From positions 248,001-312,000 of the forward strand of contig JAHQIY010000036.1 of the NCBI GenBank assembly GCA_019054805.1: a stretch of 64,000 nucleotides of DNA. Reading direction: 5' to 3'. The position numbers were made by a program, and so were the translations under genes. Below, piece after piece: positions 53-9,576 of this stretch (positions are counted from its first letter, which is position 1; every line of letters begins with the position of its first letter). This stretch comes from Brachionus manjavacas (taxonomy: Eukaryota; Rotifera; Eurotatoria; Ploima; Brachionidae). The notes beneath the pieces are model-generated. The model did not search any database. It was not told where the DNA came from and saw only the letters and a list, made by a program, of their open reading frames with translations.

Positions 53-2601
53 TCCAGAATTGGTGCTCTTATTATCTCCAAATTACGCAAAAAGTTTATT
101 GAGTAAATTAAATCAGATTGAATTCGAACAAAACCATTTATGATTCGAATTGAGCTTAGAACTTCCAACTCTTTTTCTGTTAATTCTGTGATGTCTCTTT
201 AAATTTAAATTTTAGAGAAAAAAAAGAAAAAAAGTGAAAATAAAATAAATTAAACAAAATAATAAGATGTATCTTACGAATTTGAATCAATAATCATTAA
301 ATTTCCATTCAATATTTCACAGTCTTTGAGTAGGTGAATGTTTTCACGATTTAAAATTTCACTTGGCATTTTAATGCTAGTTATAACACAGGCTTTCAAT
401 TAAAATTTAAATAGTTTTCTGTAATATAAAATTTGAATTGGGCAATTTTCGTACTTTTTTTACATTTAGGAGGTTCGCAGGGCTTACATATTCGTCTCAG
501 TCCTTTTTCACCTGTAACTGGATTGTTTATTATCTCTTCCTCTTCGTTTGTATTATCTGGACATTTCGATACGCACAATTCTTGGTAAATAAATAAATTT
601 TCTACATAAATAAATCAAATTAATTAAGGTTTAGCTTATTAGAAGATTTTGATTTTACTAGGACAGCTCCGAACACAAGATATTCCGAATTGGTACATTC
701 CATTTTGGTTATAAACGAGTTCACCAGTGAGTGTATCGACCATCTTGATTCTTGGACAGCTGTCAACACACTCGCCGGTTTCAAGAATACGGAATTTCTT
801 ACATGCTATGCAATCTTTGCTTGTAGGTCCAGTACACCCTCCTAAGCATTCTTTATAGCAACAATCATATTTTCCTGTACCAAAACATCTTCCTTGACAA
901 CTCGAGCTACATTTCAATCGAGACACTTTAATTTTTATTTTTATTTTTATTTTTCAGGTTTAAAGAAGAAAACTTAACTTTTGTGAATTAAACTATTTTT
1001 TATATCTATTATATTTCTATGTAAAACATCGCCAAGCCTGGCGTAATTTTTTTTGAATAAATTAAATTAAATTAAATAATTCAAAAAGTTAAATTTTTTT
1101 CAAAGTATTCAGTTCAAATTTTTAATTTACATTTTTGGCATCCATTTGGAAACCAACAGCCACATGTGTGACTCTCGGAAGTGCCACTTTGACAACATGA
1201 ACTGCCACATTTCGAACATAGCAATGGGTTCGCATTGTTTTGTATGTAATTGTTTTCGTGGTCATTTATTATATCATCCCAGAGAACTTCGTTCATGTTA
1301 CATAACTTGGGATTGTCGGTAATGAAAGAAGATCCTCTTTGAACTTCAGTGAGATTTTTTAAATCCAATCTTTCAAGTTTTTCATTTGAGGCGATAAAAA
1401 TGCTATAGTTGCTCGAAAATAGGGTTTTGCCACGAATTATTTGTAAGTTTTTTAGACGTAAGCTCTTTAAGTTTGTATTGAAAATTATAAGATAACCGGT
1501 AATTTCGCGGATTGAGTCCAAGAATGAAAAATCATACACCGAGACGTCGTCAGATTCAGGCTTAAAATTTTTGATTTCTAGATTTCCATCTACATACACA
1601 CAACCTGAATATATTGCTTTTAGCATTTTGTAATCGTTGCGGCTCCCACTTAAACCATAATTTGTGCCAATGCATACTTAAATAACATATTTAATTGACA
1701 AATGCTGAAAATAAAAGCTTTTGAAAAATTGGTCATTTTTGGAGTGTATTTGTGATAATGGAGCAAAGCAATAATATTTTGCAGGTAGAAAATTCATCAA
1801 AGAAAATCAGCGAAATACCCCAAACTCTATCCAGATTTTTTTCTAAATCTGATCATTTTTTAATATTTTTTTAAATAGCAAAAATTCTATCTAAGTCTAA
1901 GCTAAAATAATTTAATGTATTTATAGCACTGCAACCAGCTATATCTCATTCAGATTAAAAAAAAAAAAGTTAAAACGATTATGATAAAATCAGAAAATCG
2001 AAAAAGAACAAGAAAGTTACTTAACCAGAGGAACACTCAGATATTGGAATATTCGTGAAAGAAAGGAAATAAACTAAGGCAGCTCAGACACATAATGGCT
2101 CAGAACCTGTCTGACAATAAAGGCGAGAGAATCACTCAGTCCTTACCTAACTAACCTTCACACAAATCACAAGACCTTTGATTCTTCCAATTTTTTTAAA
2201 GATTTCTCTATTATCATTTAGTTTAACAATTGAGACGAAAATCGAAATTTCTTAAGATTAAGATTATGCTTGTCCTATTGCTTAAATTATAAAGAATTGC
2301 TCAAATTCTTTTATAGGTAATAATTTAAGACATTTTTAAATTTTTAGAAAAGAAAAGAAATTTAAAAGCCAAAAAATACATGATAGAATTACAGCATTTT
2401 AATTCTTGACATTATAAGCTTGGTCAATAGTTTACCTTGACTTGATCTTATATAAAGATACGGATTGTTGACATATTCCATTGATTTAATTCGATTATAG
2501 AGATAAGATTGCGCTTCGGATATTTCAACCAGATTAGTTAAATTAGATGATAACACATAATTTAAGAAGCATAGTAGAAGAGAAAAAAAATATGGTGACA
2601 T
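53..2601 (-). CDS. EGFR: EGFR/ErbB-family receptor tyrosine kinase, N-terminal ectodomain (partial, continues left of window)
   Basis: Epidermal growth factor receptor homologue; only the extracellular ligand-binding part is in the window. Exons by splice phase: 2601-2436, 1676-1131, 925-659, 601-455, 392-278, 196-53 (about 461 codons), all GT..AG and in frame. Exon 1 starts at an ATG with a hydrophobic signal peptide (MSPYFFSLLLCFLNYVLSS). Exon 2 is the receptor L1 domain (GCVYVDGNLEI, LQIIRGKTLF, DNPKLCNMNEVLWDDI). Exons 3-4 are the furin-like cysteine-rich region (CSSSCQGRC, CCYKECLGGCTGP, DCIACKKFR, QFGISCVRSCP, LCVSKCPDN). Exons 5-6 open the L2 domain (LLKDCEILNGNLMI, INGFVRIQSDL, LRNLEIIR). 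The order and cysteine spacing follow ErbB receptors and not the insulin receptor. Introns 3-5 are about 50-80 bp, intron 1 is 759 bp and intron 2 is 205 bp. The transmembrane and kinase parts lie outside. What is seen is the ectodomain; kinase activity is inferred from family. Confidence 0.93.
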
Positions 2602-4890
2602 TTATTGGATCAGTAAAATTTTGTTTCAAATATTATAACCAAAAAAAGATAAATAAACTTGGCAAAATAGAAATGCTCAAATATTTTTCTCTTTTCATCA
2701 ATTATGACTGCTTGTTTAATAGATTTTTGTGTATTTACATTAAAAATAAATTTTAAATAAAATAATTATAGGTATAATAATAAAATTTTCGTAATAAGAC
2801 TCATCAAAAGATTTCATGACATAAATACACTTTTTAAAGTCGTATTAAAAGCTTTAAATGTCAATTAAAATTGAATATTATTCAAACTAATCTCAAAAAT
2901 CGGTAAATTATATCAAGACACAAAATTTATTATGTAAAATATTAATTTATTATGAATTTTTTGAAAATTTTTCAAGCGTGACCATTTTTAGTTTGAAAAT
3001 TTTATTACCTTTTTCATGCTCGCCGAATTCATTTCTGATATATTGAACCAAAGTGCAGATCAATACTATCACAGCTAGTCGATTTTTGATAATCATTGAC
3101 GCTGCTTTCTTTTTTACGCAACTTTAGTTTAACAACTAATGCTCATATTTGAGCATGGTGCTTTTTCCGAGTTAATTAATTGAGTTTTATCTAAAATTTT
3201 TAGAAAAAATCAAATTGTAACAAAAATTTTTGAGTTATTTGTTTATTAAAGCTAAAAATGAAAATATTTTACTAATAGATTTTAAGTTTGGTCATCAGTT
3301 GGCAGATTAAAAAGATTAATTAGCCTCAAACTAGTTTAATTTTTAAAACAATTTGCCCTTAGAATTTTTGGTTGATGAATGGAAAATTTAAAAAAAATAT
3401 TATTAAACAAAATTTGACAGCTTCAAGAAAAACCATAAATTGCCAATTAATTTCACTCAAAAAAAAATCTGTTTATCTTAGATTTTAATCGTTTATCTTT
3501 TAATTTTTTGTCCAAAATTCATCTTCTTATTTCAAATAACATTCAAACCATTCATTGTTTCTTCTAGTCACGTGCTGATTTAAAATGCACTTCGCCAACT
3601 TGTATTCATGATAAGATTTTCTAGAATGTTCCAAATAAAGCATTCACACAACTGATTTTAAACTCAAAGAGAAAAATTTTTCTAATTTTTTTTGTGTACC
3701 CAATTTCTAAAAACCGTAATTCAGTCTTTTGAATAGATATAAATACAAAAGAGCATAGATTTTCTTTTATTGACTCTGAACAACAATAGAATCAATAAAA
3801 GCCTGATAATTTAAATAGTTTTGAATGCCAATTGTGGGTCATTGAAAAATTTCAAACTTGACTCCTACTAAATTATTGTTTTTTTTTTGTTGAAAAAATA
3901 ATACATTTCTTGGTGAGTTATCAAATAAATTCTACTTCCCAGATATCCCATACATATATATCCCATTTTTTGTGCGAAATTTTGATTTTTAAAATCAAAT
4001 ATTGAAAAATATTGTTCTCTCTTTATCTCTCTAATCATGTAATGCTTTTGAGGTGATATTTATATTCGGATTAGTTTACGTACACTTAATCAAAGTCGTA
4101 GTGTTAATAAATTAGAACCAGTTTTGGTTGACAATTGTTTATAAACTCGAAAAATTTAGTCTTGCTCATTTTTTTTAGGGATCATATATTTTTGATAGTA
4201 ATCTTAGATTAATTAGCAAAAAAGTAAAATATGCATACCAAATAAAAATAAATAAAAATAAATTGGTTTTAAAAAATGAACATTTAATTAAAAAGATACA
4301 AAACATGCTTAAAGGATATTTGTATTTAAATATTCATATCTAATATCGCTAATACTTTTGTAGATATAACTTCCGATTGATTTGATCTAATTAATTATCT
4401 AAACTTTACAAGCCAAAAAAAGACTAAATTTGGAGAAAGAAAAAATATTCTGTATACCAAATTGCCTAGCGTTCTCAGTACTAATAACTTTAAAATTATT
4501 ATTTCGAAAATAAAAACACAAAAAATGAAGCAACACACTTTGAAACTGAATTCCATTTTGAACTAGATACATTGTAAGGCTTGACTTTTAGTATTAATCT
4601 TAAAATTTCAAACCCTATAGGTAATTTAGAAAACACGTTTTATTTTGACCTGACAATTTAAATGAAAAATTTTAAATTTAGTCAAAATCCGTAAAAATAA
4701 ACTTATTTTATCGGCCCAGAAGGTTTTCACTTTTAACAAGATTATATTAGTCATGTTCATATTGATTTTACGAATGATTTTTTTTAAGTAAAAATTAATT
4801 TTTATATTATCTACTTATCTGGGAGAGTGAAGCAAGAGCCAGGCGCAGAATAAAAATAATTTAAGAAGGTGCTGTTAAGGAGAAGAGAAG
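2602..4890. other. Intergenic, AT-rich, upstream of the EGFR-like gene
   Basis: No open frame with recognisable protein content and no clear element ends. The promoter of the receptor gene must lie at its left side, but no TATA box or initiator stands out from the AT-rich background. Confidence 0.5.
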
Positions 4891-5032
4891 TTTTTTAAAT
4901 CTAAATTCAGTTTTTGCAAAAACTGTGCATTTTATTAGAATTTGAAGCAGGTCTTGTTCTAAGCGCCTATAATTCTACAGTATCAGAGAAAATGCAGAAT
5001 TTTTGCAGAGACTGAATTTAGATTTGAAAAGC
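4891..5032. repeat. Imperfect inverted repeat (MITE-like palindrome)
   Basis: Arms of about 45 bp (4891-4935 and 4988-5032) are imperfect reverse complements, sharing AAATCTAAATTCAGT and TGCAAAAA..TGCATTTT, around a loop of about 50 bp. It ends exactly where the target duplication of the hAT element begins. The TGCAGA..TTGCAGAG motifs resemble the centre of the foldback element at 53598-53952, so it may be a related remnant. Confidence 0.55.
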
Positions 5033-5059
5033 TTTTTTTTAGTGATGGGAGTTTTCTCT

Positions 5060-5475
5060 TTAGTTTAGTTAACTAATTTTTAGTCGACTAGTTTTTAGTT
5101 AACTAATTTTTAGTCGACTTGTTTTTAGCTAACTAAATTTTAGTCGGCTTATTTTTAGCTAACTAAAATTTAGCCAACTAGCTTTTAGCTAACTAATTTT
5201 TAGTCGACTTGTTTTTAGCTAACTAAAATTTAGCCAACTAGCTTTTAGTTAACTAATTTTTAGTTAACTAAAATCTAGTCGACTAGTTTCTAGTTAACTA
5301 AAATTTAGTCGACTAGTTTTTAGTTAACTTATTTTTAGTCGACTAAATTTTAGTTAACTAAAAACTAGTCGACTGAATTTTAGTTAACTTATTTTTAGTC
5401 AACTAAAATTTAGTTAACTTATTTTTAGTCAACTAAAATTTAGTTAACTTGTTTTTAGTCAACTTAACTAAAATT
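5060..5475. repeat. Left subterminal array of alternating palindromes (hAT)
   Basis: About two dozen units spaced 15-16 bp apart alternate between AGTTAACT (GTTAAC core) and AGTCGACT (GTCGAC core), with variants AGCTAACT, AGTCGGCT, AGCCAACT and AGTCAACT, separated by AAATTT or TTTTT. Each unit is itself a near-palindrome. The same array in inverted order is at the right end. These are plausible transposase binding sites; that role is inferred. Confidence 0.92.
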
Positions 5476-6603
5476 TATGACTAAAGTTTTTTTTTTACAT
5501 TCAAATTTTTTAGGGAAAATTTTTACTGATATTTTTAATTAAGACTAAATCTTAAAATAAATTTAGATAATTTTTTTTTGTTTTTTATTTTAAATGGCTT
5601 TGAGTAGTAAAACTCCTTTCACCATTGTAATTTTAGTATTTCTGAAATTTTTTAAATATTTTTTTAAAGATCCGAAATGTTAAAAGAATTCGAACACAAA
5701 TTAATTAATTAAAAATCTAACTCATTTTCTAAACTTTTTGTTAATTCAATTTTTATACTTTTTATTCGGTTTTGTTTTTATTCACTTTTTTATTCTCTTA
5801 TCTCTATGATTCAATTTTATTTGTCCATGGGGCTTAAACTTTAATTAAATAAAATTAAATAAATATAAATAAATTTTGTTTTTTTACTTAGCTTTGTGTT
5901 TTACTCACTTTATATTCAATAAAAAAATTGTCAATCAATTCACTTTTTTTATAATCAGTCTCATTGTCTTATTCAAATAATAATTCAATACAATTCAATT
6001 AATTTTTTATTGAATAAAAAGAAAAAAAATTGAATATTTTTCTAACTAATTCACTTAATTGATTAATTCACGTGAAAACTTCACGCCAGTTTATAATTAA
6101 AACAGAGATTATTTTATCCAGTCAAAAAGTTTTATATTTTCTATTCCAATTTTATTTTTTTTAATATTGCACTAAAAACTCAATATGAAAAGAAAATTTT
6201 GAAATATCAATTACAAGTCAAGATCGTTTATTTCGTTGGAAGTACTCCGAGTAAATACGGAGTAAAAAAATTAAATATGATTAAATTATCAATAAAAGAT
6301 TTATTGAATCATTGATTTTATTGGTTAAAAATTAAAGAGTAAACAGGTAAATAATTGAAATTCTTGTCCTATCAATCAACCAATAGAATATAGAAAGATA
6401 AAAACTAGAATTTCCGTTAATGATTCTTTTAGGCTTAACTTAATAAAATCTGGTTTTTTTACCTATCCTCCTTAAAAAAAAGTTTTCTCACAAAAAAATT
6501 ATAACTGTCTAAATAAGGGAATGTTAATTTTAAATAAAAACAATCAATTAATTTCCAAAATCAAATTTAAAATTTTTACTAAAAATACAATAAAAAATTT
6601 AAA

Positions 6604-8596
6604 ATGTCTAATAAAAGAATGAGAACAAGCGTTGCATCGATCTTAGGAGAAAACTCTAGAATGGATGAATTTCTTCAGGAAAATTACAACGACTCAAATT
6701 TACAAACGCAAGCATCAGATGTTCAGCCGACTCAATCAAATACAATTTCAAACGAAAGTTTTCATGTTGAGGAAACCTCTTCGATGGATCCGAATCTTCA
6801 AGGGCAAAATATTTTCTTCGAGGAAGTTGGCATACTACAAAAAGATAATATTGTTGTCCAAATGTTGCAATGTTTAGAATGCAAAAAAGATAACATTCTA
6901 AAATATTATCAAAAGACTTCAGCAAAAACCAATCTCGACTATCATTTAGAGGTAAAACACGGGATAAAAATTGCCAAAAAACAAAGAAAAAATTTACTCA
7001 TCAGAAAATTTAGAACAAGAAAACCAGATAGCGCCCTTTTGTTTTTTTAAATTTTTTGTTTTTTACCTTTTTCAATTGTAGAAAATTCACATTTTAAGGA
7101 ATTTATTTTATTATTGAATAAGGACTATAAATTACCGACAAGAAAAAATTAAGATCCATTTTGGATGAAATTTATCAAAGAAAAAACAAGAACTCTTAAC
7201 CAAACTTATTTCAGTTGATTTTTTAAGTCTTACTACAGATAGCTGGACATCTTGCCAAAACTATAGCTATTTTAGCTTAACTTGTCATTTTTTTGATAAC
7301 TTTAAGCTTAAAACATATTGCTTAAACTTTAGTAACTTAGTTGGTGGTCACACTGCAGAAAATTTAGAATCTTCTATTATTGAGGTCTTAGAAAAATTTA
7401 ATTTGAAAGGTAAAATTTTTTCAATTGTCTCCGATAATGCTTCGAACATTCGAAGAGCAGTTTTAGATATGGATTTAAATCATGAGCCAATTAGGTGCAT
7501 AGGTCATGTCTTACAGTTGATAGTAAAAAAATTTATCGAGAAATGTGGAAGATCTTGCAAAATTTAATGAAGAAAGTGAGCTAATTCAACCTGATATCAG
7601 TAATTATTCAGTGGGTAAAATTCTTTTAAAATGTAGAAGTATTGTCTGCTCGTTTAATCACTCCACTCAGCTGAAAGAATTGCTCGAAGAGCAGCAAAAA
7701 GGGGAAACTAAGATTCTGAACCTTGTCCAAGATGTAAAAACACGCTGGCATTCTACTTTTGCGATGGTAAAAAGAATTTTCACACTTCATTCTTTTATAG
7801 AAACAATTTTTCATAGGCAAGAATATAAGCAATTTAAAATAAATCTTTTAACTAGAAATGAACTAGCTTATCTAGAAGAATTAATTAATGTCCTGTCCAT
7901 TTTTGATAAAGTTAGTGAAACTTTATCTGGAGAAAATTATGTAACTAGTTCAATGATCGTTCCAGGTTTTAAGTATATTGAAATGAAGTTAAGAATAAAA
8001 AATAATAACTCAACTTTCGAAAAAAACATAAAAAATGCGTTAAAAGGTTATTATGATGAATATTTAAACAACTATGATTTAGAATCAAATGATTTTCTTT
8101 TATCAGCTACATTTTTGCATCCTTTTTATAAAAAATTTCAATTTATCACTAATGTATTAAGCAGAAATAATTGTCTAAAAACTAGCAAAAAACTTTTTAA
8201 TTAACTTATTTAAGACGAAAAGATATGACGAAAAGATATCAAGTCTAAAGAAAAAAATTAAAGAGAGAGAAAGACAATTAACAAAAAATTAAATTTTGAT
8301 TCAGATTGGAGATACTGAGGAAACAGATGAAGAAATTTTCGACATTAAAAAAGAAATAAAAAGTTATCTAAATAATGATAAGAATGAAGATGCTATAGCT
8401 CTTTTGGAAAAACAATATTTATGAGTATCCGATATTGTCTATTTTGGCAAGTGTAATTCTAGCTGCTCCGGCAACCAGCGTTCCGAGTGAAAGATTGTTT
8501 TCTCATGCTGGTTATCAGCTCTGGGATCGAAGAAATAGGCTTTCAAAAGCAAACTTTGAAAAAATAATGTTCTTATATGAAAACAAAGATTTATGA
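6604..8596 (+). pseudogene. hAT transposase with BED zinc finger, broken by frameshifts
   Basis: Transposase of the hAT element. The first frame (6604-7050) begins at ATG and contains a BED finger: C-x2-C at CLECKKDN and H-x4-H at HLEVKH. The next segment reads in pieces: FLSLTTDSWTS, SIVSDNASNIRRAV and CIGHVLQLIVKKFI, the usual RNase-H-like hAT motifs. The frame at 7545-8204 carries NLVQDVKTRWHSTFAM, the conserved TRW block. The C-terminal dimerisation block ILAAPATSVPSERLFSHAG is at about 8450-8515, ending NKDL then stop. At least four frame changes (near 7045, 7150-7200, 7535, 8205-8410) make it non-coding as it stands. Part of the first gap could be a removed intron. Confidence 0.88.
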
Positions 8597-8909
8597 GTTT
8601 GTACTAGTTGATTATTTTTTTTTTTATTTTTTTTTATTTTTTTTTTATTTTTTTTTGATTTTTTTTTGTATTTGATTGTATGTATTTTTTCTTCTATAAT
8701 ATTAAAATTTCCATTAAAAAAAGTTAAATAAATGTTTTTTAAAATTTTATTTTTTTCTTTACGATTCCCCTTATATCTGGCTTACCCTATAATTTCCTGT
8801 AAACCCTAAATTGTCTCACTAAGATATCTCACTCCTCCCACTAAAACTATTTTTTACTTAATATAATACTAGTCCCGAGATATCTGATTCACACATTTTT
8901 TGTACTCTT

Positions 8910-9350
8910 AGTCTAACTAATTCGACTAAACTAAAATTAAGTTGACTAAAAATAAGTTAACTAAAAAACTAGTCGACTAAATTTTAGTTAACTAAAAACT
9001 AGTCGACTAAATTTTTAGTTAACTAAAAAACTAGTCGACTAGATTTTAGTTAACTAAAAACTAGTCGACTAAAAATTAGTTAACTAAAAGCTAGTTGGCT
9101 AAATTTTAGTTAGCTAAAAACAAGTCGACTAAAAATTAGTTAGCTAAAAGCTAGTTGGCTAAATTTTAGTTAGCTAAAAATAAGCCGACTAAAATTTAGT
9201 TAGCTAAAAACAAGTCGACTAAAAATTAGTTAACTAAAAACTAGTCGACTAAAAATTAGTTAACTAAAAATAAGTGAACTAAAAATTAGTCGGCTAAAAA
9301 TTAGTTAACTAAAAATTAGTCGACTTATTTTTAGCCGACTAAACTAAATT
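8910..9350. repeat. Right subterminal array of alternating palindromes (hAT)
   Basis: Mirror image of the left array: AGTTAACT and AGTCGACT units alternate with AGTTAGCT, AGTTGGCT and AGCCGACT variants over about 440 bp, ending 20-odd bp before the right TIR. The variants match those of the left array, as expected if the two ends are copied from or corrected against one another. Confidence 0.92.
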
Positions 9351-9576
9351 AGTTAAGTTAAGACCCATCTCTACTTTTTTTCATCTCAACAAAATTTCTA
9401 ATTTCTTTATCACAAACTTTGTATTTTCATTTAGAAATTTGCTCTTAACTTCACTTTCACTATTTATCTCTAATTAACAGTATTTGATAAAAAACGGGGA
9501 TTTTTCCCAATAAAAATTTCAGATCTTTTTGCGATATTATTTTAAAAGAATAATTTTTTTGTCCAGGCCTCATAAT

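Follow-up and report, generated by a model that had tools for sequence, protein, structure and literature searches.

The 64,000-nucleotide stretch of Brachionus manjavacas DNA analysed here (contig JAHQIY010000036.1, positions 248,001 to 312,000; hereafter the window) carries at 5040-9373 a hAT transposon of 4,334 bp, which is flanked by an exact 8-bp target duplication, CTTTTTTT, and bears inside each tip an array of 27 palindrome-like octamers repeated at a step of 15 bp (left) or 15-16 bp (right). Judging from the sequence analysis, these arrays probably act as a platform for binding of the transposase and would represent an extreme, phased version of the subterminal repeats of hAT elements. 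A first-pass annotation of the window had described a hAT element with an exact 8-bp duplication and arrays of two alternating palindromes at both ends, and had proposed that the arrays may be a two-site binding platform for transposase dimers. The duplication, a hAT dimerisation domain and a match to Hermes confirmed the identity of the element, and the arrays were found at both ends as described. Of the proposed function, the binding platform was the best fit, helped by two further families in the genome with a similar layout and different palindromes, whereas a required two-site code was not supported.

The octamers of the window copy take the form AGNNNNCT, with 17 of the 27 left and 16 of the 27 right octamers being perfect AGTTAACT or AGTCGACT and the others being variants, mostly imperfect palindromes. 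The GC content of the window is 23-30% per 8-kb block, and the chance of such arrays was assessed with 1,000 dinucleotide shuffles for each end. The left end contained 27 strict AGYYRRCT sites and 26 pairs at 15 bp, compared to a mean of 0.55 sites and at most one such pair in the shuffles, while the right end contained 25 sites and 20 pairs, compared to a mean of 0.52 sites and no such pair. Across the genome, searched as 114 Mb in 61 contigs, AGTTAACT followed by AGTCGACT after 7 or 8 bases occurred 244 times, as compared to 0 in the reversed control. The nematode telomere repeat TTAGGC was also searched for and gave 0 hits. The terminal inverted repeats themselves are short (TAGTGATGGG and TAGAGATGGG, alike at 9 of 10 bases).

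Whole-genome DNA searches returned seven near-identical full-length copies at seven different places (the window copy and L009-L014). Each of them carries the left and right tips together with the two arrays, and each is flanked by an exact 8-bp duplication, some of the duplications being A/T runs such as AAAAAAAA in L013. Other copies lacking the arrays, which the first-pass annotation had named as the sign of a local expansion, were thus not seen among the full-length copies, and an expansion limited to the window copy is ruled out. Alignment of the internal parts gave identities of 99.1-99.8%, gaps not counted, and between 6 and 24 gap events for each pair. Over the 21 copy pairs, 201 of the 316 gap events altered an A/T run of at least five bases by 1-2 bp, and some of these length differences may be assembly errors. 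The element is a young cut-and-paste hAT transposon. Its array size ranged from 22 to 30 sites on the left and from 23 to 31 on the right, where one of our two counts had a spurious outer left site and the other had a degenerate inner right unit added. Relative to L011, used as reference, 12 changes in unit number were identified, of which 10 involved an even number, and L012, L013, and L014 have one left deletion in common, which may be a single event.

The step between sites was 15 bp in 354 of the 358 intervals of the full-length copies and 16 bp in the remaining 4. A similar period was observed in 13 short derivatives of 0.7-1.8 kb, taken from genome-search matches whose counts are lower bounds, with 196 of 206 steps being 15 bp and 10 being 29-30 bp. 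Nine of these derivatives are flanked by exact duplications, three by duplications with one mismatch, and for one (L042b), which was retained, none was found, whereas L022, L025, L027, L039, L040, L044, and the other L042 pieces were left out because we did not find a pair of ends or a duplication in them. Detected sites per end ranged from 1 to 23 in the derivatives, and 11 of the 13 had at least five sites on both ends in a relaxed count. Our chain finder for sites favours a 15-bp step, but chain-free distances between strict sites also formed a comb at 15, 30, 45, 60, and 75 bp, in full-length copies and derivatives alike.

The distance from the tip to the array is likewise fixed. Genome-wide, the first left AGTTAACT lies 17 bases past GATGGG in 34 ends and 12 bases past it in 2 (45 rows, of which 8 unrelated ends and 1 right-type end were dropped; reversed control 18), and the first right AGTCGGCT lies 23 bases past GATGGG in 33 ends and 22 bases past it in 2 (37 rows, 2 dropped as unrelated; reversed control 5), these searches detecting only ends with an unchanged first site. 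Since the distances are unlike at the left and the right, the two ends differ by design.

Using the 487-residue protein of L014 as query, we identified two further families of relatives. Family 2 (L049, L050, L051, and L054; 42-53% amino acid identity) carries the words GGTTAACC/GGTTAGCC, a pair that gave 15 genome matches compared to 0 for the reversed pair. In L051 both ends read TAGTGATGTTGGTT and the duplication is exact, and the steps in L051 and L054 combined were 14-17 bp in 18 of 24 cases, 30-31 bp in 4 and 23 bp in 2, with only few GGTTAACC/GGTTAGCC sites being present in L049 and L050. Family 3 (L052 and L055; 35% amino acid identity) has the ends TAGTGATGAAATCGAAT and exact duplications, and the words ATTCGAAT/ATTCAAAT form an array at either end; 13 and 16 bp are the prevailing steps and add up to a 29-bp double unit. 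Queried with the left array of L052, the genome yielded 6 places at which both ends matched and a seventh at which a single end did. Three of these 6 copies are located on G000:C33 near 227578, 240980, and 254374, about 13.4 kb apart, and may reflect the tandem duplication of one larger block.

The better-kept ends of all three families start with TAGTGATG, the right tip of family 1, to which the window copy belongs, being TAGAGATG. The octamers of families 1 and 2 differ symmetrically at their two outermost bases, with A..T in family 1 and G..C in family 2, as expected for a site that is read by two like domains. Families 1 and 2 resemble each other in their finger motifs, and family 3 differs; taking the families as three data points, we infer a link between finger and site.

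Regarding the transposase, the longest uninterrupted frames among the seven copies encode 569 (L012) and 487 (L014) residues, while frameshifts appear to break the frame of the window copy. The hAT dimerisation domain PF05699 was recognised over the cut-off in the L014 protein, P0001 (E 4.9e-17), and likewise in the window copy when one stop was read through, and a search of solved structures matched P0001 to four Hermes-type sequences (E 1.1e-13 to 2.3e-13). Reading P0001 by eye, we found TTDSW, VSDNASN, CIGH, and PSERLFS, which are candidates for the catalytic D, D, E and CxxH motifs of hAT transposases. A CX2C-X20-HX4H pattern is present in 6 of the 7 full-length copies (not listed for L010) and, by inspection, would correspond to the BED finger of the first-pass annotation. 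The features of the window copy are collected in Table 1.

Table 1. Features of the hAT element in the window (positions within the window)
Feature	Position	Strand	Remarks
Target site duplication, left	5032..5039	.	CTTTTTTT, identical to 9374-9381
Left tip TAGTGATGGG	5040..5049	+	Common to 7/7 full-length copies
Left array, 27 palindrome-like octamers	5067..5464	+	26/26 steps of 15 bp; first site starts at element base 28
Transposase N-terminal frame with CX2C-X20-HX4H motif, BED-like	6604..7050	+	Without Pfam match
Rest of transposase, pieces in shifted frames (window copy broken)	7132..8596	+	Longer open frames in L012 and L014
hAT C-terminal dimerisation domain	about 8396-8584	+	Within transposase pieces 7132..8596
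Right array, 27 palindrome-like octamers	8940..9340	-	Steps of 15 bp 23/26, of 16 bp 3/26; first site starts at base 34 from right tip
Right tip CCCATCTCTA on + (TAGAGATGGG read inward)	9364..9373	-	Present in 7/7 full-length copies
Target site duplication, right	9374..9381	.	CTTTTTTT

On the binding-platform reading, two BED-like zinc-finger domains from transposase N-termini would bind each octamer through its two half-sites, arranged back to back, and the octamers do resemble TAGT half-sites so arranged, with AT-rich linkers in between, repeated in phase 22-31 times. With a 15-bp step, the distance would be about 1.5 helix turns between neighbouring sites and about 3 turns between like sites. 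Such regular placement could let many transposase protomers gather cooperatively near each tip and, once gathered, pick out the right ends within an AT-rich genome. The transposase would accordingly be expected to bind the octamers through pairs of fingers, and a larger number of sites may raise activity. More tentatively, and with less than even expectation on our part, the three families could belong to a hAT clade with a conserved nucleoprotein scaffold, in which two-fold symmetric sites follow a half-integral step (about 15 bp, with a double unit of about 30 bp), the letters change with the finger, the geometry is the conserved end signal and the number of sites provides dosage control.

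Alternatively, the arrays may be a passenger satellite, that is a tandem repeat grown by slippage and end-to-end copying, with no more than the tip and the one or two sites next to it being of importance. Unit numbers varying from 22 to 31, mostly in even changes, among copies with nearly identical interiors would be in line with such growth, as would the nearly identical units of family 3, which look freshly grown, and the as few as 5-6 sites detected on one end of L018, L024, and L026, all of which have exact duplications. However, a passenger would hardly be expected to keep a double unit of about 29-31 bp throughout three families whose palindrome-like words differ, nor a 15-bp step that outlasts the turnover of unit order in the derivatives, nor a fixed distance from the tip to the first site, and we therefore regard this explanation as unlikely.

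Several observations nevertheless weigh against a binding platform. The constancy of the step among young copies is partly inheritance, and an attempt to detect selection on the 15-bp step from the absence of small indels in pairs of derivatives gave no clear answer, as the copies are too young, and was not used. In two derivatives, L028 and L041 (each with one mismatch in the duplication), only one site was detected at one of the ends, and long arrays are therefore possibly unnecessary. Older relatives have few strict sites when clusters of 3 or more are counted (4 in L029, 6+4 in L031, 3+4 in L037, and 3 each in L036, L039, and L040), and no strict-site cluster was found in L030, L032, L033, L034, L035, L038, L043, L045, L046, and L047, the ends of which are mostly undelimited; array remnants are present in L033 all the same. 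No such palindrome array was observed at the hAT-like loci L053 (37% amino acid identity) and L056, at which ends were not found, and these two loci were counted neither for nor against an array in every hAT-like locus. Moreover, the Pfam search did not recognise zf-BED in the N-terminal finger. Lastly, 21 of the 54 octamers in the window depart from a perfect AGTTAACT or AGTCGACT.

L053 (G000:C9:73200-79200) contains at 2204-4411 an uninterrupted hAT-like frame of 736 residues with no recognisable transposon ends, and is possibly a domesticated gene or an element with overlooked ends.

The alternation was analysed by assigning octamers to classes by their central two bases, TA versus CG/CA/TG, and by taking out unclassed sites beforehand, which touched 16 of the 358 intervals in full-length copies and 33 of 196 in derivatives. 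In the full-length copies, the window copy among them, alternation was near-strict, with 342 of 350 steps alternating, compared to a mean of 182 and a maximum of 209 in 1,000 permutations, and same-class neighbours were seen in the outermost right pair and in one left pair of the window copy (9318/9333 and 5247/5262, respectively, in the window). Such regularity could mean that the two palindrome classes are functionally distinct, for example with the transposase on one face of the helix and, on the other face, either a host factor or another surface of the transposase, and that alternation is selected; two words likewise take turns along much of the arrays of families 2 and 3. In the derivatives, however, only 103 of 188 steps alternated, which is a slight excess over the permutations (mean 90, SD 5.8, maximum 109), even though 9 of the 13 have exact duplications. 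Considering only neighbours 14-16 bp apart, alternation was 335/342 in full-length copies and 87/163 in derivatives.

Hence, the 15-bp period is general across the group and strict alternation is not, and strict alternation was rejected as a group-wide rule. A two-site code that depends on strict alternation was therefore not supported. The alternation is best explained as a by-product of growth in 30-bp double units, which yields it for free and has no need for two kinds of site, and functionally distinct classes appear to us a quite improbable alternative.

A further proposal had been that variants shared in mirrored order show the two ends to be kept alike by conversion or by copying. The mirrored order was confirmed, with left and right ends of the same full-length copy sharing 138-220 bp exactly, inside repetitive ends of about 400 bp. 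Left ends compared with the right ends of other copies shared 107-223 bp exactly, about equal to the sharing within a copy, and as sharing is not longer within than between copies, the copying of the ends predates the spread of the copies. These observations fit one older, common copying event between the ends, while ongoing conversion between them received no support. The shared variants are thus real and were copied before the spread, but they gave no sign that the ends are kept alike at present, and the long shared stretch is absent from the derivatives, of which twelve share 11-30 bp between left and right and L042b shares 59 bp.

Long identical ends might also suggest that the arrays serve above all as long inverted repeats (foldback), with pairing of the ends leading to end copying, rearrangement or formation of derivatives rather than to protein binding. 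The exact identity in all seven full-length copies, and the two left-type ends of L042b, would be accounted for in this way. Yet nine of the derivatives have exact duplications despite the short sharing of their ends, and the ends of families 2 and 3 have only 14-28 bp in common (L051, L054, L052, and L055), making foldback very improbable as the main role of the arrays.

Two unusual arrangements were noted among the related loci. In L042 (G000:C7:3511000-3518500), a 706-bp element at about 3518-4223, amid a cluster of related pieces, has two ends of the left type (L042b), which have the first site at base 28 each and are identical over 59 bp; no target duplication was found. In L017 (G000:C26:212200-218500), mirror-image copies of one end, with arrays near 1000-1217 and 3942-4159, lie about 3 kb apart and have equal array spacing, which suggests an inverted duplication of one element end.

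Structural knowledge of end selection and end pairing by hAT transposases comes mainly from Hermes so far. One genome with three families of similar spacing and different palindromes, together with derivatives of 1 to 23 sites per end, constitutes a natural series that would allow direct tests of whether spacing, palindrome sequence, alternation or site number matters in end recognition, and of co-evolution between finger and site. We found no report of phased palindrome arrays in hAT elements in the open-access literature, a weak negative given that repeat databases were outside the search.

Multi-site ends as such are already known from Hermes, Herves, Ac, and Tol2, and from Galileo as tandem repeats in long ends. 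According to the sections of the sources that we cite, the ends of Tol2 and Ac are similar in that about 150-200 bp of each end is required, and in Tol2 a perfect palindrome, AAGTACTT, lies a short way in from the tip, whereas these sections mention no long regular array for either element (PMC10368747). Herves of Anopheles is similar in that a repeated short subterminal motif suffices for transposase binding, and it has three imperfect 100-bp tandem repeats at the left end only, but that source gives no description of the motif as a phased palindrome (PMC3143072). Galileo, of the P superfamily, likewise has tandem repeats in long terminal inverted repeats, with several binding sites for the THAP domain of the transposase as a proposed source of specificity (PMC3688188); it differs in superfamily and DNA-binding domain, and the present element has a short palindromic unit at a helical step. 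The DNA preferences of hAT-derived BED proteins are reported to vary widely, and four hAT proteins have motifs that fit subterminal regions of their own elements (PMC8097297). The closest parallel is Hermes, which our transposase matches and whose ends carry AAGT/AAGC subterminal half-sites, 17 on the left and 14 on the right, including a quasi-palindrome of AAGT-type half-sites within the first 27 bp that is cooperatively bound by two BED domains and requires adjoining AT-rich DNA (PMC10368747). While most Hermes sites are described as single, similarly oriented at each end and asymmetric between the ends (PMC10368747), the present element carries 22-31 palindrome-like sites per end at a fixed 15-bp step.

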